From Chloroflexota bacterium (GTDB lineage: Bacteria > Chloroflexota > Anaerolineae > B4-G1 > SLSP01), in contig JAKQHY010000173.1 of NCBI GenBank assembly GCA_029555965.1, positions 1 through 64,000 on the forward strand: a stretch of DNA of 64,000 nt. Reading direction: 5' to 3'. Below the pieces are notes generated by a model. It worked only from the letters and a program-made list of their open reading frames with translations. It searched no databases and was not told the DNA's origin. The translations under genes were made by a program, and so were the position numbers. Positions 1,848 through 61,253 of the stretch are shown one piece after another; the stretch's first letter is position 1; every line of letters starts with the position of its first letter.

Positions 1848-2894
1848 CTACACCGGGTGCAACCCCGGAAATTCCAGCCCCAGCTTCTCCGGCCAACCGT
1901 ACATCACGTTCATCGCCTGCGCCGCGCTGCCAGCCGCGCCCTTCATCAGATTGTCAATCGCGGCAATGACGATGGCGCGCCCCCCCGGTTCGTCCAGCAC
2001 AAAGCCGATGTCGCAGTAATTGGAGCCGGAGAGCAGCTTAGGTTCGGGATAACGATGAATCCCCCGGCTGGCGCGCACCAACCGCACAAACGGCTCGTCG
2101 CCGTAGTCCTCGCGGTAGAGCTTCCACAGGTCACGCTCAGCCAGCGCCTTGCCCGCGTCGGTAAGCAGACAGTGACACGTCGCCAGCGCGCCGCGCACGA
2201 TGTCCACCGAGGTCACGGTGAAGTGGAAGTGCGGGTCAGCCGGGTCAAGCCGCAATTCCTGGATCATCTCCGCGACGTGGCGATGTCCAAACGGCGAGTA
2301 CGTCCGCACTACGCCCGCCCGCTCCGGGTGATGCGAGGCTTCGGTGGCCTTATTGCCGCCCTCGGACGATCCCACCTTCACCTCGACCACGGCTTCGCGC
2401 ACCAGGCCCCGCTTGTAGAGCGGCGCAAGCGCGAGAATCGTGACGGTGGCATTGCAGCCGACCCCGCTGATGTATTTCCCGCTCTGCATCTCCGCGCGAT
2501 GCAATTCCGGCAGCCCGTAGACGAAGCGCGCCAGCCATTCGGGGTGGGGATGCTTGTGCTCGTACCAGCGCTCGTAATCCGCCGGGTTGCGCAAGCGGAA
2601 GTCGCCGGACAGGTCTACGATGCGCTCCGCCATCCCCGCGAACTCGTCAATGCGCGCCCAGGCCGTGCCATGCGGCAGCGCGAGGAACAGCAGATCGCAC
2701 GGCTTCAACTCCGCCAGCCGGCTGAACTTCAAATTGGTGTGCCCCCGCAAATTCGGGTGGACAAAATGCGCAAACTCCCCCGCATACGTCTCCGACGTGA
2801 TCTGCGCGACCTCCACATTCGGATGAAACAACAACAAACGCAACAATTCCCCTCCGGCATAGCCGGAAGCGCCAACGATAGCAGCTTTTACCAT
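1848..2894 (-). CDS. lysY: LysY/ArgC-type acyl-gamma-glutamyl/aminoadipyl phosphate reductase
   Basis: NADPH-dependent reductase that turns the acyl phosphate made by LysZ into a semialdehyde. The N-terminus MVKAAIVGASGYAGGELLRL is a Rossmann loop. The catalytic cysteine sits in 'YISGVGCNATVTILAL', and 'VGSSEGGNKATEASHHPERAG' is the family's substrate loop. The track begins 12 codons earlier. I chose the ATG at 2894 because a GAGGTGA ribosome site lies about 7 bases before it and the protein then starts like its relatives (348 aa). The gene lies downstream of lysX and lysW on the same strand. ArgC and LysY cannot be separated by motif alone; the LysW context favours LysY or a dual-role enzyme. 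Confidence 0.9.
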   Translation of the reverse strand: MVKAAIVGASGYAGGELLRLLLFHPNVEVAQITSETYAGEFAHFVHPNLRGHTNLKFSRLAELKPCDLLFLALPHGTAWARIDEFAGMAERIVDLSGDFRLRNPADYERWYEHKHPHPEWLARFVYGLPELHRAEMQSGKYISGVGCNATVTILALAPLYKRGLVREAVVEVKVGSSEGGNKATEASHHPERAGVVRTYSPFGHRHVAEMIQELRLDPADPHFHFTVTSVDIVRGALATCHCLLTDAGKALAERDLWKLYREDYGDEPFVRLVRASRGIHRYPEPKLLSGSNYCDIGFVLDEPGGRAIVIAAIDNLMKGAAGSAAQAMNVMYGWPEKLGLEFPGLHPV

Positions 2895-2932
2895 TCGATT
2901 CACCTCGTGATAGCGACATTGCTTTCTCACGA

Positions 2933-3031
2933 CGTAAAACGTAAGACGTAAAACGTAAGGCGTAAAACGTAATGAATACCCAAGCAGATCATTACGTTTT
3001 ACGTTTTACGCATCACGCATCACGCATCACG
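2933..3031. repeat. ACGTAAAACGTAAG repeat with inverted half
   Basis: Direct units of ACGTAAAACGTAAGA are followed about 20 bases later by inverted units ATTACGTTTTACGTTTTACG, then ATCACGC triplets. It fills the lysX-lysY gap and runs into the last codon of lysX. Confidence 0.85.
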
Positions 3032-3881
3032 CCGAGGTTTTCTCTGCAACTTGTAGGACGTACTCCACCATCTTCCCCGCAATATCCACTGTCACCACCT
3101 CACTGGCGCCGTGGAATTCCGGGGCGTGGTTGACCTCGTTGACGAGGATGCGCCCATCCTGCGTCTCGAACAAATCCACCGAAACCACGCCGCCGCCCAC
3201 CGCCTTTGTGGCTTCCCGCGACCAGTGGACGATGTCGTCGGTCAGCGGGCAGACGACGGGCGCGCCGCCCCGCGCCGTGTTCGTGATCCAGTGGTCGGAC
3301 TGGCGGTAGATGGCGTAGATGACCTCATCGCCCACCACCATCGTGCGGATGTCGCGCCCCGGCTTTTCGACGTACTCCTGGATGTAAATGACGTTGTGCT
3401 GGTAGCCGCCAAGCGTCGCCTTGTGTTCCAGGAGAGCCTCGGCGGCGTCGCGGTCATTGACGCGCGCCAGCAGCCGCCCCCACGATCCGAACAGCGGCTT
3501 GAGCACCACCGGATAGCCCAGCGCCTCGATGGCTTCTAGCGCCGCCTCCGGCGACAACGCCATCACCGTGCGCGGAGACGGAATCCCCACCTCAATCAGC
3601 GCCGCGCTGGTGAGATACTTGTCGCCGCACGTCGCCACCGTCTTGTGCGGGCTGATGCACGGGATGCCCGCGCCTTCCAGCCAGCGCGTGACGTAGTAGG
3701 CTTCCGTGTGGCTCACGCAGCGGATCAGCGCCGCGTCGTAGTCCCCCGGTCCCGGCCCGCCGACCTCAAAGCGCACCTCGCGCGGGTCAATCCGATCCCA
3801 GGTCACGCCGCGTTCATCCAGCGCCGCCGTAATCAACTTCTCTTCCACCCGCTTGCGGGAATAAAAGACAGCAATTTTCAT
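3027..3881 (-). CDS. lysX: LysW-substrate ligase LysX (ATP-grasp)
   Basis: ATP-grasp ligase that joins the C-terminal glutamate of LysW to the amino group of aminoadipate (or glutamate in ArgX forms). At 284 residues it has the family's usual length. The N-terminal PreATP-grasp fold begins [19 protein letters not shown]-binding strands are seen in '[19 protein letters not shown]' and '[20 protein letters not shown]', and the Mg-binding end in '[14 protein letters not shown]'. A GAGGT ribosome site precedes the ATG. It lies directly after lysW, the expected protein partner. The substrate choice (LysX or ArgX) is unresolved. Confidence 0.92.
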
Positions 3882-3899: not shown

Positions 3900-3996
3900 G
3901 TGAGGAATTAGGAATTAGGAATTAGGAGTTAGGAATGGAACAGCTCGCAACTCCTCACTCCTAACTCCTCACTCCTAACTCCTAACTCGCTACTCG
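3900..3996. repeat. GAATTAGGA / ACTCCTA repeat block
   Basis: Four GGAATTAG-type units are followed by inverted CTCACTCCTAACTC units and then TCGCTAC units that touch the lysW stop codon. It separates lysW from lysX. Confidence 0.85.
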
Positions 3997-4167
3997 CTAC
4001 TCGCCCCAGTCTTCCTTCACTTCCGGCGCCAGGTCTACCTCAAGCGGGTCAACGCCAACAACTTCCAATTCCACGCCACAATCCGGGCACACGACGATTT
4101 CGCCTTCTTCAATGCCGTCTTCCAATTCCAACTCGGCTGCACATTCGGGACATTCTACAGTTTGCAT
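3997..4167 (-). CDS. lysW: LysW amino-group carrier protein
   Basis: Too short for the ORF track; translated by hand (56 aa). It starts [20 protein letters not shown] and ends with the diagnostic EDWGE tail, whose terminal glutamate is the attachment point for the substrate. Two cysteine pairs (CPEC and CPDC) form the zinc ribbon, and the middle is strongly acidic as in known LysW. An AAGGAG site lies about 8 bases upstream. It is the first gene of the lys cluster. LysW carries the pathway intermediates through the LysX, LysZ and LysY steps, so its presence defines this as the carrier-protein pathway rather than the N-acetyl one. Confidence 0.95.
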
Positions 4168-4190
4168 GATATTATCTCCTTCGCTTTTAG

Positions 4191-4275
4191 AAATGGGTAA
4201 TGGGTAATGGGTAATGGGTAAGAAGTAATGCTATCTGGCACTCATTACTCATTACTCATTACTTTCTACTTCTCA
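4191..4275. repeat. GGGTAAT repeat with inverted ATTACTC half
   Basis: Four GGGTAAT heptamers are followed by inverted ATTACTC units. The block sits between the leader terminator and the lysW ribosome site, so it would be transcribed in the lysW 5' UTR. Confidence 0.85.
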
Positions 4276-26983: not shown

Positions 26984-28864
26984 TTGACATCTGACCCTAT
27001 CGCCTGGGAACAAATCGAAGCGCTGTTGCACCGCGTGCAGAAGCCGGCGCGCTATGTGGGCGGCGAGTACAACGCCGTTCACAAGCCGTGGGAGTCCGTT
27101 GCCACGCGCGTGTGCCTGGCCTTTCCCGACGTGTATGAGTTGGGGATGTCCAACTTTGCGCTGACGATCTTTTATGACCTGCTCAACGCGCAGTCGGACG
27201 TGTTAGCCGAGCGCACCTACCTCCCCGCGCCGGATATGATGGCGCTGATGCGCGAGGCCGGGCTGCCTCTCTACACGCTCGAAAGCTATCGCCCCGTCGC
27301 CGCGTTTGACATCCTCGCCATCAGCGTGGCCTACGAGCAGCTCTTCACCAACGCGCTGACGCTGCTGGACATGGCCGGGCTGCCCATCCGCAGCGCCGCC
27401 CGCGAGGATCGCCATCCGCTGGTCGTGGGCGGCGGACATGGCGCGTTCAACCCGGAGCCGATCAGCGACTTCTTCGAGGTGTTCGTCATCGGGGAAGCAG
27501 AGGAGGCGCTGCCCGCGCTTGTGGCGGCGTGGCAGGCGAGCCGCGCCTTGCCGCGTGAGGATCGCCTGCACGCGCTGCTGCCCATCGAGGGGTTGTACGT
27601 GCCGCGCTTCTACCGCCCGCGCTACACCGCCGCCGGCGCGCTGGCCGCCCTCGAACCCACCGATCCCGCCGCGCCGCCGACCCTCGGCAAGCGCCTCCTC
27701 CCCACCCTGCCGCCGACGCCGGTGCGCCAGCTCGTCCCCAACGTGGACACGACGCACAACCGCGCCGTCGTGGAAATCCAACGCGGCTGCACGCGCGGCT
27801 GCCGCTTCTGCCAGGCCGGGATCATCACCCGCCCCATCCGCGAGCGGCCCGTCGCCGAGATCGTGCAGGCCGCCGCCGACATCGTGGACGCCACCGGTTA
27901 CACCGAAGTGGCCCTGCTGTCGCTCTCGTCCGCCGACTACTCGGACATCCGGCTGCTGCTGGAGCAGTTGACGGCGCAGTTTGCCGGGCAGCACGTCTCC
28001 ATCTCGCTGCCGAGCCTGCGCATTGACTCCTTCTCCGTCGAGCTGGCCGACATGCTCTCGCAGGGCCGCCGTTCCGGGTTCACCTTTGCGCCCGAAGCCG
28101 GCGCCGACGCGCTGCGCTACCGTATCAACAAAGCCATCAGCACCGAGAGCCTGCTGCAAGTGGCTGAGGACGTGTTCACGCGCGGCTGGCGCACGCTCAA
28201 GCTCTACTTTATGCTGGGGCTGCCGGGGGAGAACGACGACGACATCGCCGCCATCATTGACCTGGCGCAGCAGGTGCGCGGGATGGGGCGGCGCATCGGC
28301 GGGCGCAAGACGGAGGTTCACGTCAGCGTGAACACCTTCGTCCCCAAGCCGCACACCGTCTTCCAGTGGGAAGCCCTGGCCTCTGCCGACCTCGTCGAGC
28401 GGCGGCAGATGATGCTGCGGGAGAAACTGCGCGGACGCGGCCTGGCCCTCTCGTGGAACCGCTACGACATCACGCGCCTGGAAGCGCTGCTGGCGCGCGG
28501 CGACCGCCGCCTCAACGCCGTCGTCGAGCGCGCCTGGCAGTTGGGCGCGCGCTTCGACGCCTGGGACGAGTGGCGGAATCCGCTGGCGTGGGAGCAAGCC
28601 TTCGACGAAGCGCACGACGCCAGTTTTGCCTCGGCAGAAGCGATGCTGGACTTCTACCTCTATCGCCCACGCCCCACCGACGAAGTGCTGCCGTGGGAAC
28701 ACCTGCAAAGCGGCGTGGAGAAACGCTTCTTGCAGCGCGACTACCAGCGCAGCCAGGCCGGCGAGTTGCTGGCGGACTGCCGGGAAGGGTGTCACGCCTG
28801 CGGCATTTTGCAGAATTATCCGGGGTTGTGGACGGATGAGTGGGCATGTCCGGGTGGCAAGTAG
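26984..28864 (+). CDS. Radical SAM protein of the TIGR03960 type (N-terminal B12-binding-like)
   Basis: The TTG at 26984 gives MTSDPIAWEQIEALLHRVQKPARYVGGEYN, the family's normal N-terminus, with GGAAGG ten bases upstream. The part of track ORF 26036..28864 before this is a shadow of rpoD. The protein is about 626 aa. The B12-binding-like part ('LAFPDVYELGMSNFALTIFYD', 'VVGGGHGAFNPEPISDFFE') is followed by the radical SAM cysteines 'GCTRGCRFCQAG' and a C-terminal CREGCHACG-type cluster. Its usual neighbour or fusion partner is the DUF2344/TIGR03936 domain, here 1.3 kb away at 30164 because a foreign gene lies between. The substrate is unknown. Confidence 0.85.
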   Translation: MTSDPIAWEQIEALLHRVQKPARYVGGEYNAVHKPWESVATRVCLAFPDVYELGMSNFALTIFYDLLNAQSDVLAERTYLPAPDMMALMREAGLPLYTLESYRPVAAFDILAISVAYEQLFTNALTLLDMAGLPIRSAAREDRHPLVVGGGHGAFNPEPISDFFEVFVIGEAEEALPALVAAWQASRALPREDRLHALLPIEGLYVPRFYRPRYTAAGALAALEPTDPAAPPTLGKRLLPTLPPTPVRQLVPNVDTTHNRAVVEIQRGCTRGCRFCQAGIITRPIRERPVAEIVQAAADIVDATGYTEVALLSLSSADYSDIRLLLEQLTAQFAGQHVSISLPSLRIDSFSVELADMLSQGRRSGFTFAPEAGADALRYRINKAISTESLLQVAEDVFTRGWRTLKLYFMLGLPGENDDDIAAIIDLAQQVRGMGRRIGGRKTEVHVSVNTFVPKPHTVFQWEALASADLVERRQMMLREKLRGRGLALSWNRYDITRLEALLARGDRRLNAVVERAWQLGARFDAWDEWRNPLAWEQAFDEAHDASFASAEAMLDFYLYRPRPTDEVLPWEHLQSGVEKRFLQRDYQRSQAGELLADCREGCHACGILQNYPGLWTDEWACPGGK

Positions 28865-28911
28865 TGAGTCAGGTGATTAAACTCCAAAGCAGTCTTCCCA
28901 AAGAGTAAAAA

Positions 28912-30123
28912 ATGAATGTGAAAAACTTAGACAAATGGTTATTTTGGGGATTAAGATTTATAGATAAAAATGAGAATTGGCTGCTCACTCTCATTTCTGG
29001 CTTCTTACTGGGCAGATTTACAAATGAGTTTTCTCCCCCCAATTCGAGTCTGGCAGACATTCTCAATGGAACATTTTCGGTCATTGATCGTCCCGCGAAT
29101 TATCTATCGTGGTTATCTGTAATACTACTAATAGCCATTCCATTACTACATAGATATTTGAGATATGCCTACAGAAAGAAAAAATACATAAAAATATTTG
29201 AATCAATTTTGAATAAACACAGATCACGCATCATCTCCCATTTTCCAGGTCTGGCCTGGGATGAGGCTTTATCTCTACAAACTTGTCCTGAACTTCATCG
29301 GGGATGGGCAATAGATGAAATTAGCATTCAACAAAATACTACTAGATTCTCTTTACCCACGAAATACCAGAAACTTTATGCAGACTATCTTGAGAAAAAC
29401 AAAGATAAGCTAAGATTCTTTGATGATGGTGTTAAGGTGATGCTAACCAAAACTCCTGTTGCATTTTCTGATTCCCCTACCCTTGTTCTAGACACTCAAG
29501 AAACTCTCTATAGTCAGATCCAATTTTATAGAGACAATGTTGTTGGTCTTTCAGCAGAACGAAACACTTTGATTCATTCAGTCATTGAGGGAAGTGTGTT
29601 ATTCCCACACTCATTGTCAATGCACGCGATAGTTGTTGCAAGCGACGATAAGATACTTCTGACAAAACGATCGCCAAAAGTAAGCTACTACCCGAATACT
29701 TGGTCTTGTTCAGCAGAGGAACAATTTTCATTACAAGATTTTCAAAATAGATCGAGAAATTGCTTAACAAATTGGGCGGAGCGACTTTTATCAGAAGAAT
29801 TAGGTTTAACCCAAGATGACTATACTAAAGAGAACTTGAGGGTTTTGGCAGTATTCCTAGAAAGTGACATTCTGAATATTTCATTATGTGTCCATATCAC
29901 ACTTAACATCCAATACAAGGAATTGAATCAAAGATTATTTTTGCTACCAAGAACAGACTATGAGTTTGCAGAATGGGCATTTGTAACACACGAGGATTTA
30001 GCAAGTGAACTACTTAAACCATCACGGATCTATCATCCATCTAGTGGTTATCGTATGTTGATGGCTCTGATAAAAAGATATGGTGAACCTGTTGTTGCAG
30101 AAAAATTTCTAAGGTCTAAATAG
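28912..30123 (+). CDS. Orphan 2TM-NUDIX-like protein (Cap16-like architecture), AT-rich
   Basis: A 403-residue protein. The N-terminus has two hydrophobic segments (about residues 22-38 and 63-80, 'WLSVILLIAIPLLHRYL'), then a basic stretch and a soluble domain. From about residue 235 there is a NUDIX-like fold: 'AIVVASDDKILLTKRSPKVSYYPNTWSC', a degenerate box 'RLLSEELGL' (two of the three box glutamates kept), and 'FAEWAFVTHEDL'. The 2TM-plus-NUDIX layout matches a class of nucleotide-activated effectors described in CBASS (Cap16) and SMODS-associated systems. No CD-NTase gene is nearby. Base composition is clearly AT-richer than both neighbours, and the gene splits a normally adjacent pair, so recent transfer is likely. 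The ribosome site is weak. Confidence 0.65.
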   Translation: MNVKNLDKWLFWGLRFIDKNENWLLTLISGFLLGRFTNEFSPPNSSLADILNGTFSVIDRPANYLSWLSVILLIAIPLLHRYLRYAYRKKKYIKIFESILNKHRSRIISHFPGLAWDEALSLQTCPELHRGWAIDEISIQQNTTRFSLPTKYQKLYADYLEKNKDKLRFFDDGVKVMLTKTPVAFSDSPTLVLDTQETLYSQIQFYRDNVVGLSAERNTLIHSVIEGSVLFPHSLSMHAIVVASDDKILLTKRSPKVSYYPNTWSCSAEEQFSLQDFQNRSRNCLTNWAERLLSEELGLTQDDYTKENLRVLAVFLESDILNISLCVHITLNIQYKELNQRLFLLPRTDYEFAEWAFVTHEDLASELLKPSRIYHPSSGYRMLMALIKRYGEPVVAEKFLRSK

Positions 30124-30163
30124 CTGGCTATGAATTATATGGCGAATTACAAGTGAGTAAGCA

Positions 30164-30883
30164 GTGGAAGAATTGCCTATAGAAAAACCCAAAATCCAAA
30201 ACCGTCAGCGGATTACGTTCGCCACAGCCCAAACGCTGGCTTACGTCTCCGTGCTGGAACTGGGTCTGGTCTGGGAGCACGCGCTGCGTCGGGCCGGTGC
30301 GCCGGTCAAGTACAGCCAGGGCTTCAATCCGCGCCCCAAGATGCACTTCGCGGCCCCGCTGCCGGTGGGTTGCGGCTGTGAGGCGGACTTGCTCGACGTG
30401 TGGCTGACGGAATCGTGGACAGCGGCGGACACGCTCGCGGCCTTGCAGGGCAAAACGCCGCCGGATTTGACGGTGGTGACCGTGGCGGACGTGCCGCCGG
30501 ACGAACCGGCGCTCTCCGAGCAACTGGTCGCTGCCGAGTACCGCGTCTGGCTGCGCGACGTGACCCCGGCGGACGTGAGCGCCGCTGTCGCTGCGTTCCT
30601 GGAAGCCGAGGCGGTGATGCAGCCCCGGCGCGGCGGCAAGCACAAAGGGACGCCCTACGATCTGCGCTCTCTGGTGCAGGTGTTGGAGGTTAGGCCGGCG
30701 CCCGCGCCCTGGATCGGCCTGTGGATGCGCCTGGAGGCGCGGGTCGGAGCCACCGGTCGCCCGGATGAGGTGCTGAAGGCGCTCAAGCTGGCCGACAGCC
30801 CGCGCCGGTGTACGCGCGAGCGGCTCATCCTGGAAACGCCTACGCCAGGCGCAAATGAGGAAAAAGATTTGTCAACGGATTGA
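30164..30883 (+). CDS. TIGR03936/DUF2344 radical-SAM-linked protein
   Basis: A 239-residue protein starting with GTG. The pattern 'GLVWEHALRRAGAPVKYSQGFNPRPKMHFAAPLPVG' is characteristic of DUF2344, found fused to or next to TIGR03960 radical SAM proteins. It probably works with the gene at 26984 on the same, unknown, substrate. Its separation from that gene by an AT-rich insert is unusual. The first dozen codons ('EELPIEKPKIQNRQ') are not family-like and may have been shaped by the insertion. Confidence 0.82.
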   Translation: MEELPIEKPKIQNRQRITFATAQTLAYVSVLELGLVWEHALRRAGAPVKYSQGFNPRPKMHFAAPLPVGCGCEADLLDVWLTESWTAADTLAALQGKTPPDLTVVTVADVPPDEPALSEQLVAAEYRVWLRDVTPADVSAAVAAFLEAEAVMQPRRGGKHKGTPYDLRSLVQVLEVRPAPAPWIGLWMRLEARVGATGRPDEVLKALKLADSPRRCTRERLILETPTPGANEEKDLSTD

Positions 30884-39139: not shown

Positions 39140-42121
39140 ATGAACATAACTTTTACCCTCAATCATACCCCGCGCACTTTCACCATCACGCCCAATGAAA
39201 CCCTCCTCCACCTGCTGCGGCGCAGTGGCATTAAAAGCGTCAAGTTCGGCAGCGAGGACGGAACGGATGGGTACAGCACGGTGCTGCTCGACGGCAAGCT
39301 CTGCAACAGCGTGGTCACGCTGGCGGCGCAAGTCAACGGGAAAACGGTGCTCACCGTTGAAGGGCTGAGCGGCCACCAGCATCCCGGCTGGAACCCCAAA
39401 GAGGAATTGCACCCACTCCAGCGCGCCTTCATCGAGACCGGCGCGATCCAAAGCGGCTACGACACCCCCGCGCTCATCCTCGCCGGCAAGGCCCTGCTCG
39501 ACCGCAACCCCGCCCCCACCGAGGCCGATGTGCGCGACGCCATCAGCGGCATCGTCTCCCGTGAAACCGGCCACGCCAAGCCGGTGCAGGCGATTTTGCT
39601 GGCGGCGAAGTATTTGCAGGAAGCAGGCAGCGAGACGCAAGATGCAGGAAGCAAGATGCAAGATGCAAGAAGCAAGATGCAGGATGCAGGAAGCGAGAAT
39701 CCAGATTCGCAATTCGCAATACGCAATTCGCAATTCGTTGTCGTCGGTCAATCCCTCCCCAAAGTGGACGCGCTCAAGCTGGCGCAGGGGAAGGCGGCGT
39801 TTGTGGCGGATTTCGAGCGACCGGGGATGCTGTACGCGAAGATTCTGCATAGCCCGCACGCGCACGCGCGCATCACGGCGATGGATACAAGCCGCGCCGA
39901 AGCGCTGCCGGGCGTCCACGCGGTGCTGTGCTACAAGAACGTACCGCGCGTCGTTTTCTCGACGGCGGGGCAGTCGTATCCCATCCCCGGCCCGCTGGAT
40001 TATGTGAGCTTCGACTCGAAGGTGCGCTACGTGGGCGACCGCGTGGCCGCCGTGGCCGCCGAGACGCCGGAGATCGCGGAGCAGGCGCTGACGCTCATCA
40101 AAGTGGCATACGAAGTGTTGCCGCCCGTTCTCAACCTGGACGCGGCCATGGCCGAGGGCGCGCCCGTCATCCACGATCAGCCGGATTACGTCAACTTTGG
40201 CGACAGCGATCCGACGAAGAACCTCGTCGCCAAAGTCCGCATTGACATCGGCGACGTGGACGCGGCGTGCGCGCAGGCCGAGTACGTCTTTGAAACGCAA
40301 GTCGAGACGCAGAAGATGAAGCACGTCCCGCTGGAACCCTGGGTCACGCTGACCTACTGGGACGAGGACGACCGGCTGGTTATCCTGACCTCGACGCAAG
40401 TGCCGTTCCATGTCCGCCGCATCCTCGCGCCGGTGCTGGGGCTGTCGGAGGGGCAAATCCGCGTCATCAAGCCGCGCGTCGGCGGGGCGTTTGGCAACAA
40501 GCAGGAAATCTACGAGGACATCCCCGCGCACCTCACCATCGCCACAGGTCGCCCGGTGCGGCTGGAGTTGACCCGCGAGGAGCAGTTCATCTACACCACC
40601 ACCCGCCACCCGATGCGCGTGAAGTTCCGCGTGGGCGTGCAGAAGGATGGAACGATGGTCGCCCAGGATATGCGCGCGTGGAGCGACACCGGCGCATACG
40701 GGGGCCACGGCTTGACGGTGCTCGGCAACACCGGCCACAAGACGCTGCCCATCTACAACACACCCAACGTCCGCTTCTGGGGCGAGACGTACACGACGAC
40801 CCGCCCGCGCGCGGGGGCGTATCGCGGATACGGCGTGACGCAGGGCGTCGTCGCCACCGAGACGCTGCTGACCGAGATCGCGGTCAAGCTGGGGATGGAT
40901 CCGCTGGATTTCCGCCTGAAGAACATTATCGAGCCGCACAGCGAGAACATTATGAGCAAGGCGTGGAGCGAGGGCCGCGAAGCGAAGGGCGAGATGATCG
41001 AGACATGCGCGCTGCGCGAGGCTGCCGCGCAGGGGGCCGCCGCCGTCGGCTGGCGCGAGAAGTACGGCAACCCGGCGTGGCATGAAATCCCCGGCAAACC
41101 GCATCTGCGGCGCGGCATCGGCGTCGCGTTCCTGATGCAAGGCTCCGGCATCCCCAACCTGGACATGGCCGCTGCCAGCATCAAGATGAACGACGACGGC
41201 AGCTTCAACCTGCACATCGGCGCCACCGACCTGGGCACCGGCTCCGACACCGTCCTGGGGCAAATCGCCGCCGAGGTCATCGGCTGCACGCTCGACAAGC
41301 TCATCATCCGCTCGTCCGACACCGACGTAACGCCCTTCGACAAAGGTGCGTATGCGTCCAGCACCACCTACATCAGCGGAGGGGCCGTGGCCCGCGCTGC
41401 CGAAGAGGTCGCCCGCCAGATCAAAGCCGTCGCCGAAGACATGACCGGCGTGCCCGCCGACGAGATCACCCTGCGTCACAACCGCGCCTGGCTCACCCCG
41501 CCCCCCCTAACTCCTAACTCGCAACTCGCAACTCCTGACTCGCTTTCTTTCCGCGACATCGCCATCTACTCCCTGCACCAGAGCAACCAGCACCAGATTA
41601 TGGGGACGGCCTCGTACCTCAGCCCGGTCAGCCCGCCGCCGTTTGGCGCACAGTTTGCCGAAGTGACCGTGGACATCGAGACGGGGCAGGTGACATGCGA
41701 CCGGCTGCTCATCGCGCTGGATTCCGGCGTCATCGTCAACCCGCTCACGGCGGGCGGGCAGGCCGACGGCGGGATGCACCAGGCGCTCGGCTACGCCCTC
41801 ACCGAGGAGCTGATCTACGACCAGGACGGCCGCACCGTCAACCCGCGCTTCGACGACTACCGCGTCTTCCGCGCTGACGAGACGCCGCCGCTGGAAACGA
41901 TCTTCGTGGAAAGCTACGAGCCATCGCACCCGGTCGGCGTCAAATCCGTAGCCGAGATCGTCGTCAATGGCGCAGCGCCGGCCATCCTCAACGCCCTCTA
42001 CGACGCGACGGGCGTGATGATGAAGCAAACGCCGGTCACACCGGAAAGGGTGTGGCAGGCGCTGCGGGCGGCGGCCACAGTGCCGCATCAACCCACTTTA
42101 GCGTCACAACTGGCAACCTAG
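39140..42121 (+). CDS. xdhD: XdhD-like molybdenum hydroxylase (fused, cysteine-less 2Fe-2S domain)
   Basis: A 993-residue protein of the xanthine dehydrogenase family. The N-terminal 160 residues have the 2Fe-2S fold but none of the eight ligand cysteines: 'KFGSEDGTDGYSTVLLDGKL', 'AIQSGYDTPALILAGKALLD' and 'ISGIVSRETGH' replace GCxEGxCGxC, QCGxCxPG and GNxCRCTG. The molybdopterin domains follow ('VGDRVAAVAAETPEIAEQAL', 'VGGAFGNKQEIYEDI', 'GAYRGYGVTQGVVATE', 'DLGTGSDTVLGQ'), with the catalytic glutamate in 'GVKSVAEIVVNGAAPAI'. This layout matches E. coli XdhD (YgfN), a suspected hypoxanthine oxidase. Two repeat insertions lie in frame (about residues 165-200 and 790). No accessory insertion gene is adjacent. 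Confidence 0.82.
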   Translation: MNITFTLNHTPRTFTITPNETLLHLLRRSGIKSVKFGSEDGTDGYSTVLLDGKLCNSVVTLAAQVNGKTVLTVEGLSGHQHPGWNPKEELHPLQRAFIETGAIQSGYDTPALILAGKALLDRNPAPTEADVRDAISGIVSRETGHAKPVQAILLAAKYLQEAGSETQDAGSKMQDARSKMQDAGSENPDSQFAIRNSQFVVVGQSLPKVDALKLAQGKAAFVADFERPGMLYAKILHSPHAHARITAMDTSRAEALPGVHAVLCYKNVPRVVFSTAGQSYPIPGPLDYVSFDSKVRYVGDRVAAVAAETPEIAEQALTLIKVAYEVLPPVLNLDAAMAEGAPVIHDQPDYVNFGDSDPTKNLVAKVRIDIGDVDAACAQAEYVFETQVETQKMKHVPLEPWVTLTYWDEDDRLVILTSTQVPFHVRRILAPVLGLSEGQIRVIKPRVGGAFGNKQEIYEDIPAHLTIATGRPVRLELTREEQFIYTTTRHPMRVKFRVGVQKDGTMVAQDMRAWSDTGAYGGHGLTVLGNTGHKTLPIYNTPNVRFWGETYTTTRPRAGAYRGYGVTQGVVATETLLTEIAVKLGMDPLDFRLKNIIEPHSENIMSKAWSEGREAKGEMIETCALREAAAQGAAAVGWREKYGNPAWHEIPGKPHLRRGIGVAFLMQGSGIPNLDMAAASIKMNDDGSFNLHIGATDLGTGSDTVLGQIAAEVIGCTLDKLIIRSSDTDVTPFDKGAYASSTTYISGGAVARAAEEVARQIKAVAEDMTGVPADEITLRHNRAWLTPPPLTPNSQLATPDSLSFRDIAIYSLHQSNQHQIMGTASYLSPVSPPPFGAQFAEVTVDIETGQVTCDRLLIALDSGVIVNPLTAGGQADGGMHQALGYALTEELIYDQDGRTVNPRFDDYRVFRADETPPLETIFVESYEPSHPVGVKSVAEIVVNGAAPAILNALYDATGVMMKQTPVTPERVWQALRAAATVPHQPTLASQLAT
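39631..39736. repeat. Repeat block inside xdhD linker
   Basis: Tandem AAGATGCAGGAAGC octamer-type units followed by CGCAATTCGCAATACG units, encoding 'TQDAGSKMQDARSKMQDAG' and 'SQFAIRNSQF'. They lie between the dead 2Fe-2S domain and the catalytic domain, where an extra loop is tolerated. A smaller block of the same kind (CTAACTCGCAACTCGCAACTC) is at 41507-41545. Confidence 0.85.
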
Positions 42122-45340: not shown

Positions 45341-47876
45341 CTTCCGCCTTCTTCAACCGCAAACTGTTCGTCACCACGAACACACTGCTGAAGGCCATCG
45401 CCCCGGCAGCCAGCATGGGATTGAGCAGGCCCAGCGCCGCCGCCGGGATGAGCATAACGTTGTAGAAGAACGCCCAAAACAGGTTCATCTTGATGGTGCG
45501 CAGCGTCTTCCGCGAAAGCGCCACGGCGCGCACTACGCCGCGCAAGTCGCCAGACATCAGGGTGATGGGCGCGGCGGCCATCGCTACGTCGGTGCCCGTG
45601 CCAATAGCAATGCCCACGTCGGCCTGAGCCAGCGCGGGCGCGTCGTTGACGCCGTCGCCGACCATTGCGACGACGGCCGGTTTTCCGTTAACCGGCGCTG
45701 CTTGCAACTTCTTCACCTCGGCGGCCTTGCCTTCCGGCAGCACCTCGGCCAGCACGCTCTCAATGCCCACCTGCTGCGCAATCGCCTCGGCGGTCTGGCG
45801 ATTGTCGCCGGTGATCATCGCCAAATGCAATCCCATCCGGCGCAACGCGGCTACCGCCTCCACCGAGCCTTCCTTGAGCGTATCCGCCACCGCGACGACG
45901 CCGCACACCTGCCCATCCACCGCCACCAACATGGCCGTCTTCGCCTCTGCCTGCAAGCGCTCCACCACCGCCTGCAATCCGTTCAGCGGATAGCCGCGCG
46001 ACGCCATCATGCGGGCATTGCCCACCGCCACCGCGCGTCCGTCCACCTCAGCGGAGACGCCCAATCCCGCCTCCGCCTTGAACCCCGCCGGCTCGGAGAG
46101 CGTCAGCCCTCGCGTCGTTGCTTCCGCCCAGATCGCCTCCCCCAGTGGATGCTCGCTCCCTTTCTCGACGGAAGCCGCCAAACGTAAGAGTTCGTCTGGA
46201 GTAATGGGTAATGGGTAATGAGTAATGGGTGACGGTCTCTCCATTGATGACTCATTCCTCATTGCTTCTAACTCCTCACTCCTCACTCCTAACTCCTCAC
46301 TCCTCACTCCTAACTCGCCCACCACCACATCCGTCACCGCCGGCTGCCCCTGGGTAATAGTGCCAGTTTTGTCGAGAACAACGGTGGTGATGCGCCCGGC
46401 GCGTTCCAGAGCTTCGCCGCTTTTCAGCAGAACGCCCAACTCGGCGCCCTTGCCGGTCCCCACCATCACGGCCGTCGGCGTCGCCAGCCCCATCGCGCAC
46501 GGGCAGGCGATGACCAGCACCGCCACCATATTGATGAGCGCGCGTGTGAAAGCGTCCACGTCCGCATTGACCGGCAGCGGCGTCCCCAGGAAATACCAGC
46601 CCAGGAACGTGAGCGTGGCGACGCCGATCACGATGGGCACGAACACCGCCGAAATCTGATCCGCCAGCTTTTGGATGGGCGCCTTGCTGCCCTGCGCCTC
46701 CTCCACCAGGCGGATGATCTGCGCCAGCGCGGTCTCGCGGCCCACCTTCGTCGCCTCAAATTTAAGCAGCCCCAGTTTGTTGAGCGTCGCGCCGATGACC
46801 GGCTGCCCCGGCCCCTTTTCCACCGGCAGCGACTCGCCGGTCAACATAGATTCGTCCACCGCGGAGCGGCCTTCGATCACCACGCCATCCACCGGGATTT
46901 TCTCGCCGGGCCGCACCAGCACCACATCGCCCACGCGCACCGCATCCACCGGGATTTGCAGCTCGACGCCATCGCGCACCACCTGCGCCGTCTTTGCCTG
47001 CAAACCCATCAGCTTCTTGATGGCCTCCGAGGCGCCGCCCTTCGCTCGCGCTTCCAACAGCTTGCCCAGCCGCACCAGGGTAATGATAACCGCCGATGTT
47101 TCCAGATAGACGTGCCCCTCAAGCCAGCCAAACACGATGGGCAGCGAATAGAGATACGCCGCCGTTGAGCCGAGGGCAATCAAAACATCCATGTTGGCCG
47201 CGCCGTTGCGCAGGGCCTTAGTCGCGCCCACGTAATACTGCGCGCCCACGTAAAATTGCACCGGCGTGGCAAAGGCCAGCATCACCCAATGCACCCAATC
47301 CGCGTGCGCCCACATCCCAAACGCGCCAAAATCCCGCGCCATCGAGAACGCAAACAGCGGCAGGGTGAAGATCAGGCCGATGACGAGCATCCGCTGTTGA
47401 TGGGCGATTTCGGCAGCGCGCGCCCTGGCCTCCGCGTCGTCGGCGTCGCCGCCCAACTCCAACGCCTCGAAGCCGGCCCGCGCTACTGCCGCGCGGATTT
47501 CGGCCTGGCTGACGAGGGTGGGCACGTAACGCACGCGCGCTTTCTCGGTCGCCAGCGCGATCTGCGCCTCCAACACGCCTTCCAGAGCGAGTAGGGCCTT
47601 CTCCAACCGCCGGGCGTCGTTATCGTCGCCCAGCCGCTTGAGGATGAGGTCGGCCTCCCCGGCAGCGACGCCGTAACCCGCGCGCTCCACCCGCCCGATG
47701 ATGTCGGGCAGGAAGACCAGCGTCGGGTCAAACTCCACCGTGGCGCGCTCCGAGGAAAGGTTGACGACGGCGCCGGTCACGCCGTTAACCTTCTTCAAGT
47801 TGCGTTCCACCGTCGCCACACAGTTGGCGCACGTCATCCCGGTGATGGGCAGGGTGATGGCTTTGGTTTCGGACAT
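45333..47876 (-). CDS. copA: Copper-exporting P1B-type ATPase
   Basis: An 847-residue heavy-metal ATPase. The first HMA domain has '[14 protein letters not shown]'; a second HMA-like domain follows but lacks CxxC. Eight helices include '[19 protein letters not shown]' (CPC metal site). The phosphorylation site is '[12 protein letters not shown]', with 'SEHPLGEAI' and '[22 protein letters not shown]'. Between the phosphorylation and nucleotide domains, about 40 residues ([20 protein letters not shown]...THYPLPI) come from an inserted repeat. AAGGAAT precedes the ATG. It works with the chaperone downstream of the divergent promoter and is probably copper-inducible. Confidence 0.93.
46199..46317. 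repeat. Repeat insertion in copA (in frame)
   Basis: GGGTAATGGGTAATG-type units and ACTCCTCACTCCTA-type units, together about 119 bases. These are the very units found in the intergenic blocks at 4191 and 3900. They add a hydrophilic loop to the ATPase nucleotide-binding domain without a stop or shift. Confidence 0.9.
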
Positions 47877-57822: not shown

Positions 57823-58748
57823 AACTCAAGTTGCCACCTTTAGGCAGTCAATACTAAAAGCTAAGACAAAGAGTACAATTTTGAGTTCGAAACCCACCGG
57901 CGTCACCGCGTGAATGGTCTTAGGGAAACGTTGCGTGATCACACTGCCGGCGGTCTCCACCATTTTGCGATAGTGATGCTGTAGGTAGCGGGCCCAGGGC
58001 GGGTCGGGGCGTTTAGAGTTCTTCTTCCGCATGGGCTGTAAGTCAATCCCATCGGTGTCGCGTAAGTCATCTTCGAAACCATAATCGTTGTAACCCCGGT
58101 CGGCATATATGGTAGCTCCTGCTGGCAGATCAAAGGCATAATGCGGTAGTGTACTGACATCGCTCGTTGAGCCAGGAGTCAAGAACACCTCGACGGGTTG
58201 TCCGTCTTTGGTGATTAACAAGTGCAATTTCAGTCCATAGAAGTAGCGTTTCTTACTGGCGATATAGCCCCGATCACGTTCCGTGGTGTACAGCCGCCCG
58301 CGCGGGATCCGAATGTTATCACATACCGGGATGGGAAACGAATCAATACTGTAAATGGACTCCGTATTGAGCTCTTTCCAATATTCACCAAGTGATGAAA
58401 ACAACGTCAGGAACAAGTCTCTGATGCGATGCAGCCGCCGATTGAAGCGACTGGCACTCAGCATGTGGGGAATGTAGTTGTGTTCCTGCAAAAAAGTACA
58501 AGCCTGCGCGTAATTGCCCCCGTAATACAAGACCGCCGTGATGGCCGTGGTCATCACTTCGGCATCACTCATCTGGCATTGCGGGTCTTCGTAATGATGC
58601 AGCGCTTTCAACAGGTCGTCACACAGGCAATACACGGCTATAATGTGGGTGTCCATAGATTCCTCCGTAGCGTTAGGGTTTAGTCACCACTAACTATACG
58701 AGGAATCTATGGATTTCCTACTTCTCTTTCAAGGTAGCAACTTGGGTT
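57823..58748 (-). mobile_element. IS982-family insertion sequence (926 bp)
   Basis: Terminal inverted repeats AACTCAAGTTGCCACCTT (left) and AACCCAAGTTGCTACCTT (right, complement), with ATCTAT duplicated on both sides. One complete transposase gene lies inside, its stop codon within the left repeat. It landed between the RHS tip stop and the lipoprotein start. The clean duplication suggests a fairly recent simple insertion. Confidence 0.88.
57826..58656 (-). CDS. IS982-family transposase
   Basis: A 276-residue DDE transposase: 'SIYSIDSFPIPVCDNIRI' (first D), 'LLITKDGQPVEVFLTPGSTSD' and 'GATIYADRGYNDYGFED' (second D). The region for the third acidic residue is near 'RKKNSKRP...'. The C-terminus is 'FELKIVLFVLAFSIDCLK'. 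The length is normal for IS982 and no break is seen, so the copy may be active. Confidence 0.88.
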   Translation of the reverse strand: MDTHIIAVYCLCDDLLKALHHYEDPQCQMSDAEVMTTAITAVLYYGGNYAQACTFLQEHNYIPHMLSASRFNRRLHRIRDLFLTLFSSLGEYWKELNTESIYSIDSFPIPVCDNIRIPRGRLYTTERDRGYIASKKRYFYGLKLHLLITKDGQPVEVFLTPGSTSDVSTLPHYAFDLPAGATIYADRGYNDYGFEDDLRDTDGIDLQPMRKKNSKRPDPPWARYLQHHYRKMVETAGSVITQRFPKTIHAVTPVGFELKIVLFVLAFSIDCLKVAT

Positions 58749-58754
58749 ATCTAT
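58749..58754. repeat. IS982 target-site duplication, right copy
   Basis: ATCTAT, matching 57817-57822. Confidence 0.75.
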
Positions 58755-58761
58755 ATGACTC

Positions 58762-60444
58762 CTATTTACCTGGGGTGAACAACCGACCAACATCTGAATA
58801 GTCTTCGCATTTGTGATTTCTCCAGTCGCAATTCTTTAGATCGCGAGAATTCCAACCGTTGGAATAGAGTTCCCAGACCCGCCACCCGTAGGCTTGAGCA
58901 GTATCGTTTCCAGGGCCATATCGATCTAGGGCCGCTTGCCAGTCACTCTCACTATCAGTAAACCCTCCGTTGAGAATGGATTGCATCTGCATTTTGTAGA
59001 AAAAGAACCGAATGCCGTATGCGATAGTATCAAAAGGTTCCCCCTGAAATTCTGAACCAACATTGATAAAACCCCAAGCATAGGGGTCAACATATGTACC
59101 CTGCATCGCTTTGAGACCTTCCAAGTCCCTGAAAGTGACAAATCCATCTCTCACCTGCATTACATTGCCAATGTCCCCAGGTGCTTCACTCTGACCGACG
59201 CCGGTCTCTTCAAAAGCAATAGCCTTTATTAGATTGGGGGAAACATTTGGTAGGTTCGCCGCACTCCCTGATCTTTGTTTACGCCAATTCCAATAGCTTG
59301 TCCAACCGGAAATTATCCAATCATATTTATTGTAATCAATACCCTTAATTTGTTCGTATGAAGGATTTTCGTAACATTGCATATCATTTAGGATATTGTT
59401 AGGATGAGATGGGCTAATCGGGCTCTCTTGGAAGTTAAGAGCCACAATCAATCGAGCCATATATGCTACTTTAGGATCAGGGTCTGCAATTCCGGTCAGT
59501 TCATTTGTCCCAATATCTAAAGGTTTACTAGTAGCTGTCCAAGCTATTAGAAGAAGTTGGCGATATGTATCCCAAGGTATTATCTCCGCCAGACCGCTTG
59601 GATCATTCTTATTTATGGGATTGCCACCAACATAATTGAACTTGTGTAAAGTATGGGGCTGCCTTACGTCTCCGCTCCACGGATCGACCTGCGTAAACCG
59701 TCCTGTCGCTCCATCGTACCACCGCGCCCGCAGATACGTCAACCCCACACCCGCATCGAACCACTCCCCGGTGAACCCCAACCCCGTCTGCGCCTCGCCG
59801 ATTTCTTCACCATACGGCGACCACTCGCGGGCGGCCGTCACCGCGCCAGCGGCGTCAGTCTCCTGGCGCACACTTCCCAATGCGTCGGGCAACACAAACG
59901 TCCAGGCCGTCCCGCTCTGCCAGCCCAGGGTATCGTAGCCGATGAGGTACAGGGAGTCGCCATCGCTCAACAACTCCGGCACGCCCGTGGCCCAGTCCCA
60001 GGTGAAGGTGTCAACGGATTGCACGGAGGTAACGGATTGGGAACGCGCCAGCCGCAGGCCATCGGCATTGTACGTATACACCAGCGTCGCCGTGAGACTT
60101 TGCGCCCGCACCATCCGCCCGGCGGAATTATACGTGTAGGTAAACGTGCCATCGGAGAGCAGGTTGCCCCGTCCATCCCAAGTGTACAGCACGCCATCCG
60201 CACTTGTCAAGCGATTGGCCGCGTCATAGACGTAGGTGTGAACTGCGGTATCCGTCATTGCCGTGCGGTTGCCGACGGGATCATACTGGTAGGCGTACTG
60301 CTCACCGGTAGAGTAATCGGCGGCAGTCAGGCGATAGAGGGCATCATAGGTGTAGCTGATCCCGCGCGGGACGCCGCTGCCGGTCTCCGTGACGTGCATG
60401 CGATTGCCGGCGGCGTCCAGCGTGTAGGCGTAGTGCGCCAGCAC
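58762..60444 (-). CDS. Orphan RHS core with muramidase-like C-terminal tip
   Basis: 560 residues from an internal GTG. In-frame RHS sequence continues upstream to about 60520 without a good start, so this is a displaced cassette rather than a full gene. Residues 1-280 are YD repeats and the RHS-associated core ('TYLRARWYDGATGRFTQVDP', 'NYVGGNPINKNDPSG'). After the core the sequence changes to a separate tip: 'SPNLIKAIAFEETGVGQ', 'GNVMQV' and 'WQAALDRYGPGNDTAQAYGWRVWELY' recall a lysozyme/SLT fold with a catalytic glutamate. The core part is close to that of the long RHS gene at 61254. Expression would need fusion by recombination or internal initiation. Confidence 0.75.
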   Translation of the reverse strand: MLAHYAYTLDAAGNRMHVTETGSGVPRGISYTYDALYRLTAADYSTGEQYAYQYDPVGNRTAMTDTAVHTYVYDAANRLTSADGVLYTWDGRGNLLSDGTFTYTYNSAGRMVRAQSLTATLVYTYNADGLRLARSQSVTSVQSVDTFTWDWATGVPELLSDGDSLYLIGYDTLGWQSGTAWTFVLPDALGSVRQETDAAGAVTAAREWSPYGEEIGEAQTGLGFTGEWFDAGVGLTYLRARWYDGATGRFTQVDPWSGDVRQPHTLHKFNYVGGNPINKNDPSGLAEIIPWDTYRQLLLIAWTATSKPLDIGTNELTGIADPDPKVAYMARLIVALNFQESPISPSHPNNILNDMQCYENPSYEQIKGIDYNKYDWIISGWTSYWNWRKQRSGSAANLPNVSPNLIKAIAFEETGVGQSEAPGDIGNVMQVRDGFVTFRDLEGLKAMQGTYVDPYAWGFINVGSEFQGEPFDTIAYGIRFFFYKMQMQSILNGGFTDSESDWQAALDRYGPGNDTAQAYGWRVWELYSNGWNSRDLKNCDWRNHKCEDYSDVGRLFTPGK

Positions 60445-60565
60445 GGTTGTTCCACGCGCGTGCAGCAGGGCGGTCAGGCGGCCGGCGGGGTCATAGGTGG
60501 GCGTGGTCTGGACGCCAGATTACATAGCCCCATTGTCATAGACCAGATGCCATACTGGCAATAGG

Positions 60566-61123
60566 TTAAGGTAAGCGGGTGAATACGACAGGTTCTCCTA
60601 CAATTTCTACATATCCAAACTCATTTGTTTCTTTATCATGTATTTCCAGACGCTTCTGTACGGTCAGGGTGTAGGTACCCGGTTCAGATAATTCAAACCA
60701 AGTATCTATACGGAAAACTTCTTGAAAAGGTTGGTCTGGATAAATGCCCTGTTCCAGAAAGGAAGTTCTCGCACCCATTGTGGTGATTCCATCTTCCGTC
60801 ATCTGTACAATTTCTCCCTGTGCATCTGTAATGTACAACTCGAAATTAAGATGAGGATTATAGCGAGAAAATCCCACATCCGTATCATCCAAAACTGATA
60901 TAGTTGCAGTAATTATGATAGGCTCTCCCTGGGTATAGTTATCATTGTTGGTTGTAGCTCGTATTACACAAGTTTCACAAGTTACGACTACCGGCTCTCG
61001 CGACGATGTCTGCTCACGGCAATTGGTAGTGGCTATCATCAACAGAATGAATAGGAGGAATGTGCTGCCTCTCCATATCGAAGCTATATACTGCCTATAC
61101 TTTCGCATATTTACATTCACCAT
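60566..61123 (-). CDS. Small lipoprotein behind the long RHS gene
   Basis: A 185-residue protein with a hydrophobic signal ending near 'LLFILLMIATTNC', a weak lipobox. A beta-rich domain follows ('GEPIIITATISVLDDTDVGFSRYNPHLNFELYITDAQGE', 'YTLTVQKRLEI') resembling an intracellular-proteinase-inhibitor/BsuPI-like or Ig-like sandwich. It lies 130 bases after the long RHS gene, on the same strand, and just before the orphan RHS tip. It is the kind of position where immunity genes of RHS toxins are found; function is not proven. AT-richer than the RHS core. Confidence 0.65.
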   Translation of the reverse strand: MVNVNMRKYRQYIASIWRGSTFLLFILLMIATTNCREQTSSREPVVVTCETCVIRATTNNDNYTQGEPIIITATISVLDDTDVGFSRYNPHLNFELYITDAQGEIVQMTEDGITTMGARTSFLEQGIYPDQPFQEVFRIDTWFELSEPGTYTLTVQKRLEIHDKETNEFGYVEIVGEPVVFTRLP

Positions 61124-61253
61124 AATTTACATGAACCGATTCGGTAGAAAGCTCTTCCGAATACTGTGCCTATCACAAGGCAAAATCCCCGTTAACATAA
61201 CTTGACCACTTGACACGCTACAGGACACTGAGGATTAGCAAGTTATTGGGCTT

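Follow-up and report, generated by a model that had tools for sequence, protein, structure and literature searches.

A gene for a 403-aa protein with two predicted N-terminal membrane helices, a cap region and a C-terminal NUDIX domain (2TM-NUDIX) was horizontally acquired by this Chloroflexota bacterium and is inserted between two radical-SAM partner genes. Sequence comparison in the groups sampled suggests that the protein belongs to a sparse, NUDT22-like family of cap+NUDIX proteins with members in distant taxa. The best explanation for the gene is that of an acquired single-gene cap+NUDIX member with a two-helix anchor, which may act as a ligand-gated membrane effector; this is put forward tentatively, with a chance judged to be somewhat short of even.

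An AT-rich gene at the radical-SAM junction

The window, i.e., the whole stretch of 64,000 nucleotides that was analyzed, contains the following features at and around the 2TM-NUDIX gene:

27020-28864, + strand: left flank, B12-binding radical SAM gene of the TIGR03960 family, start approximate (NCBIfam TIGR03960 E 6.5e-199, profile positions 2-601 of 605)
28863-28872, + strand: left copy of the junction repeat, AGTGAGTCAG, 10 bp, which overlaps with the left-flank stop codon
28912-30123, + strand: gene for the 2TM-cap-NUDIX protein, 403 aa (ORF, translation, low GC, ortholog on contig L051)
28978-29160, + strand: codons of the two predicted membrane helices, about residues 23-40 and 61-83 (hydropathy and low-confidence AlphaFold2 helices)
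29242-29604, + strand: codons of the N-terminal "cap" of the soluble unit, about residues 111-231 (hhalign coverage, Foldseek match)
29605-30114, + strand: codons of the predicted NUDIX domain, about residues 232-401 (AlphaFold2 pLDDT about 85, conservation counts)
30152-30161, + strand: right copy of the junction repeat, AGTGAGTAAG (10-mer search of the window)
30164-30883, + strand: right flank, TIGR03936/DUF2344 gene (NCBIfam TIGR03936 E 8.6e-42, Pfam DUF2344 E 1.9e-35)

Both flanking genes are intact according to the NCBIfam profile search. The sequence-only reading had described an orphan gene that is AT-richer than its neighbours and splits the TIGR03960/TIGR03936 pair, and all three statements hold: the two families are matched on either side of the gene, no CD-NTase gene is adjacent, and its GC content of 36.6% and GC3 of 31.2% compare with 59.9 ± 6.7% and 70.5 ± 11.8%, respectively, for the ORFs of at least 200 aa in the window. 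The gene is collinear with its flanks, starting 47 nt past the upstream stop and ending 40 nt ahead of the downstream start, so that co-transcription in an operon is plausible from its position. No promoter or terminator signals above chance were found at the gene.

For comparison of the junction, relatives were found by a search with the TIGR03936 protein. The junction was empty in all 15 readable genomes of the same family, in which both partners lie at one locus, and the raw gap between the aligned ends of the partners ranged from 2 to 189 nt. From the empty junction in relatives and the low GC content, it is concluded that the 2TM-NUDIX gene was acquired. Across the order (48 genomes), the sole other relative of the inserted gene was present in G421, on a different, small contig. 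In three genomes of a sister family of the same order (L042, L047, and L048) the junction contains an unrelated Peptidase_M29 gene (Pfam confirms this for the L042 protein, and the other two are similar on visual inspection), and other junctions of this family were empty. The junction was also considered as a general insertion hotspot, and this was rejected, as only the unrelated M29 peptidase gene of the sister family was found there. No mobility gene was identified at the insertion site.

Similar sequences at both junctions had also been reported by the sequence-only reading. These are real as a 10-mer, starting at 28863 and 30152: the motif AGTGAGTMAG, i.e., AGTGAGT(C/A)AG, matches twice in the 64 kb, where 0.08 matches are expected, and both matches are located at the edges of the insert. 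How to read them is ambiguous, since in the closest relatives this spacer consists of an array of GGGAGTA/AGGAGTA repeats; in the four closest relatives, short GGGAGTA- and GAATTACG-type repeats fill it. The junction repeat may be a target-site duplication, and a leftover of the repeat-filled spacer explains it too. The view that the repeats prove a target-site duplication was therefore rejected. Heptanucleotide arrays of this kind recur throughout the window, where intergenic tandem arrays with 7-bp units and multiples thereof are frequent, e.g., at 3903-4263, 39615-39737, and 46201-46316. Elsewhere in the window, a DDE transposase gene and two RHS-repeat genes are located at 57829-63947, and between these lies a 184-aa gene (60566-61123) with a GC content of 41% and no Pfam match.

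Protein architecture, fold and the degenerate NUDIX box

The layout of two membrane segments followed by a NUDIX-like domain, which had been proposed from the letters of the sequence, was confirmed by hydropathy of the protein and its ortholog and by AlphaFold2 and Foldseek. The second membrane segment (residues 61-83) is clear; the first (about residues 23-40) is weak by hydropathy and clear in the ortholog on contig L051. Two AlphaFold2 models were made, the second of the soluble part; one row, taken from a plasmid record, was omitted from the alignment used for structure prediction. The prediction comprises a pair of N-terminal helices at low confidence, followed by a cap region and, at about residues 235-400, a NUDIX domain with a pLDDT near 85; the membrane part and much of the cap have low model confidence. 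Pfam gave no match to the 403-aa protein at E up to 10, and thus no HTH domain, PADLOC and PHROGs gave nothing significant, and NCBIfam gave only a sub-threshold NUDIX model.

In Foldseek, human NUDT22 was the top hit with either model (E 2.7e-10 and 1.6e-9), and NUDT17, IPP isomerases and other NUDIX enzymes ranked below it. For one model there were 149 PDB matches at E up to 0.001, and the best 50 listed per model were nearly all NUDIX proteins. The match to NUDT22 spans the cap and the NUDIX domain, with a TM-score of 0.5-0.6 by target length and a sequence identity of 11-14%, and since its rmsd is high (6.5-10 Å, with a cap modelled at low confidence), the likeness is claimed at the level of fold class. 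Nothing in the match corresponds to the membrane part with its two helices. Within this limit, the models support a NUDIX fold for the C-terminal part.

Conservation was analyzed in an alignment of 21 rows, consisting of the window protein and 20 relatives. The canonical box GX5EX7REUXEEXGU is not matched in the window protein, which reads R291-L-L-S-E295-E296: R291 and E295-E296 are present and the "RE" glutamate is missing. The degenerate box noted before is therefore real, and since the "RE" glutamate is absent in 21/21 rows, including all 20 relatives, it is a family trait and not decay. Conserved positions in the NUDIX domain are R253, S267, E269, E270, R291, E295, E296, and E317, of which R253, R291, and E296 occur in every row, E270 and E295 are each lost in one, and position 317 is acidic throughout (E or D). 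NUDT22 likewise does not have a conventional NUDIX box (PMC5688067) and hydrolyses UDP-glucose (PMC10101856), so that a degenerate box is no proof of inactivity. Judged from the alignment, the conserved metal-site residues E270, E295, E296, and E317 would fit an enzyme as well as a sensor.

Membership in the Sa_NUDIX/Cap16 group, which the sequence-only reading had suggested, was not borne out. Cap16 of CBASS is described as a transmembrane effector with a NUDIX domain (PMC10419184), and the window protein resembles it in architecture only, having two N-terminal membrane helices and then a C-terminal NUDIX domain. Sa_NUDIX (PF18167) was not matched by the window protein in Pfam at E up to 10 or by its nearest kin at E up to 1, kinship being judged by profile alone. 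A search of the phylum with Sa_NUDIX, including the window genome, also gave no match, in a setting where no control was positive either and sensitivity is unproven. PADLOC had no match for the Dehalococcoidia and Streptomyces populi relatives. In addition, unlike Cap16, the soluble part of the window protein is predicted to carry a cap and to resemble NUDT22, and no CD-NTase is encoded next to the gene.

Relatives, module exchange and gene neighbourhoods

Sampling of the family covered Chloroflexota, one actinobacterial family, plasmids and one genome scan. A single-sequence scan of genome contigs gave no relatives, an alignment-based scan gave 14 loci, and phages and IMG/VR viral contigs yielded none. 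The Dehalococcoidia contig L051 encodes a full-length relative that is 38% identical across 400 aa, membrane region included. Another 2TM member is located on a Rhodoferax antarcticus plasmid, among toxin-antitoxin genes. The relative in the same-family genome G421 lies at a contig edge next to a UvrD helicase gene; only one membrane segment is left on the contig, and it is labelled 2TM on account of its kinship to the Rhodoferax protein. Together, the four 2TM members (three Chloroflexota genomes and the Rhodoferax plasmid) group in one clade with a support of 97/96.

The same C-terminal unit was found in other contexts: behind an XRE HTH domain in Ktedonobacteria and Thermogemmatispora, behind one predicted membrane helix in Streptomyces relatives, and fused to a Nuc_deoxyrib_tr-like domain in distant relatives. 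A Streptomyces relative combines a caspase domain (Peptidase_C14, E 1.3e-8) with the NUDIX unit and has an EACC1 gene immediately upstream. In hhalign, the pair of the window and L051 proteins matched the XRE group with E 8.8e-22 over cap and NUDIX domain, and the Streptomyces group with E 4.8e-10 over the NUDIX domain. Just upstream of the Streptomyces populi NUDIX relative, and nearly overlapping it, lies a 432-aa gene with no Pfam match (L052, 5497-6795), possibly as part of a two-gene unit.

EACC1-caspase is a two-gene conflict system in which many different C-terminal domains can be exchanged (PMC7159879). The caspase-NUDIX relative with its upstream EACC1 gene has this arrangement, whereas the locus in the window has neither caspase nor EACC1 and has only the C-terminal unit in common, at the remote similarity given above. 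NUDIX domains fused to HTH domains act as ADP-ribose sensors in NrtR (PMC9503650). The Ktedonobacteria fusions follow the same logic of a ligand-sensing regulator; however, they place an XRE-type HTH domain at the N-terminus, and in the window protein membrane helices take the place of the HTH domain.

On contig L051, the 2TM-NUDIX relative is located in a cluster with a TIR_2+Mrr_cat gene and PADLOC candidate families. The TIR-Mrr gene lies about 1 kb upstream of it and has the only TIR_2 domain found in that genome; this is a single case and no evidence of a conserved pair. The link to defence comes from few neighbourhoods and is anecdotal. The 2TM members were not found in metabolic gene neighbourhoods. 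A further protein of 239 aa, encoded on contig L051 at 2665-3384, has two hydrophobic segments at its N-terminus and is matched by neither Pfam nor PADLOC; its layout recalls 2TM effectors of the Cap15 kind.

In the window genome, which is 85% complete, neither SMODS CD-NTases nor TIR_2 or Cas10 were detected, and control genomes were positive in each of these searches.

Possible functions of the 2TM-NUDIX protein

The variety of the modules (membrane, DNA-binding, protease and nucleotide-acting), the sparse spread across distant taxa and the one clear EACC1-caspase context fit a ligand-responsive conflict-system module better than a housekeeping enzyme, and the window protein is plausibly a defence-type sensor-effector. 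As a ligand-gated membrane effector it would function as follows. The cytosolic cap-NUDIX unit would bind a small molecule of the nucleotide-diphosphate type, such as an NAD/ADP-ribose derivative or an NDP-sugar. The bound ligand would alter the oligomeric state of the two membrane helices, and once the signal appears the membrane would be disturbed, as is proposed for other 2TM effectors. Several points argue against this model. The C-terminal domain of the EACC1 system sits in the effector and not in the sensor position; among the three types of signal-making partner searched for, none was found in the 85% complete window genome; the conserved metal-site residues would suit an enzyme just as well; the link to defence comes from a few neighbourhoods; and model confidence is low for the membrane part and much of the cap. 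For the earlier proposal of a stand-alone conflict effector there is indirect support in the module swapping, including the EACC1-caspase fusion, and in the TIR-Mrr neighbourhood on L051.

A serious rival, given a minor but substantial chance, is a membrane-tethered NUDIX hydrolase, in which the helices do no more than anchor an active enzyme, which would act on an NDP-X substrate at the membrane and cleave it. Its substrate could be an NDP-sugar, NAD/ADP-ribose or a lipid-linked diphosphate, and the protein could be either a metabolic enzyme or a nucleotide-depleting effector. The best fold match, to a protein that hydrolyses UDP-glucose (PMC10101856) despite its unconventional box (PMC5688067), points in this direction, as do the conservation of R291, E296, and E270 in nearly all 21 aligned rows and the C-terminal slot of the EACC1 system, which usually holds effectors (PMC7159879). 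However, the "RE" glutamate of the NUDIX box is missing in every row, the fusion to an XRE HTH domain seen in relatives is how ligand sensors are usually built, and the 2TM members showed no metabolic gene neighbourhood.

It is unlikely that the gene has no lasting function in its host and is a random low-GC passenger or the decaying remnant of a mobile element. The sparse distribution of relatives, the low GC content and the insertion site free of mobility genes would be in line with this, but the gene has an uninterrupted frame of 403 codons, its product is 38% identical to an ortholog from another class and keeps conserved pocket residues, and operon expression is plausible from the collinear position with gaps of 47 and 40 nt.

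A Cap16/Sa_NUDIX-type CBASS effector that was parted from its CD-NTase and receives a cyclic nucleotide from another source within the cell would have the same domain order of two membrane helices and then NUDIX (PMC10419184), but is very improbable, as PF18167 is unmatched by the window protein and its nearest kin (with the caveat that the genome search with this profile had no positive control), PADLOC matches neither the window protein nor the Dehalococcoidia and Streptomyces populi relatives, and neither SMODS nor Cas10 was found in the 85% complete genome.

A wider proposal is possible but rather doubtful: the 2TM-NUDIX proteins would be a new family of single-gene membrane immune effectors, and the NUDT22-like cap-NUDIX unit would be a general ligand-responsive module that several bacterial conflict systems exchange between membrane, protease, deoxyribosyltransferase-like and DNA-binding partners. 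The soluble cap-NUDIX unit is small and testable. If the proposal is true, the unit would be a new sensor/effector module that is unlisted in the defence and domain libraries searched here, the signal would be expected among NAD-derived or NDP-sugar ligands, and one common domain would link 2TM-NUDIX proteins, XRE-NUDIX regulators and EACC1-caspase systems.
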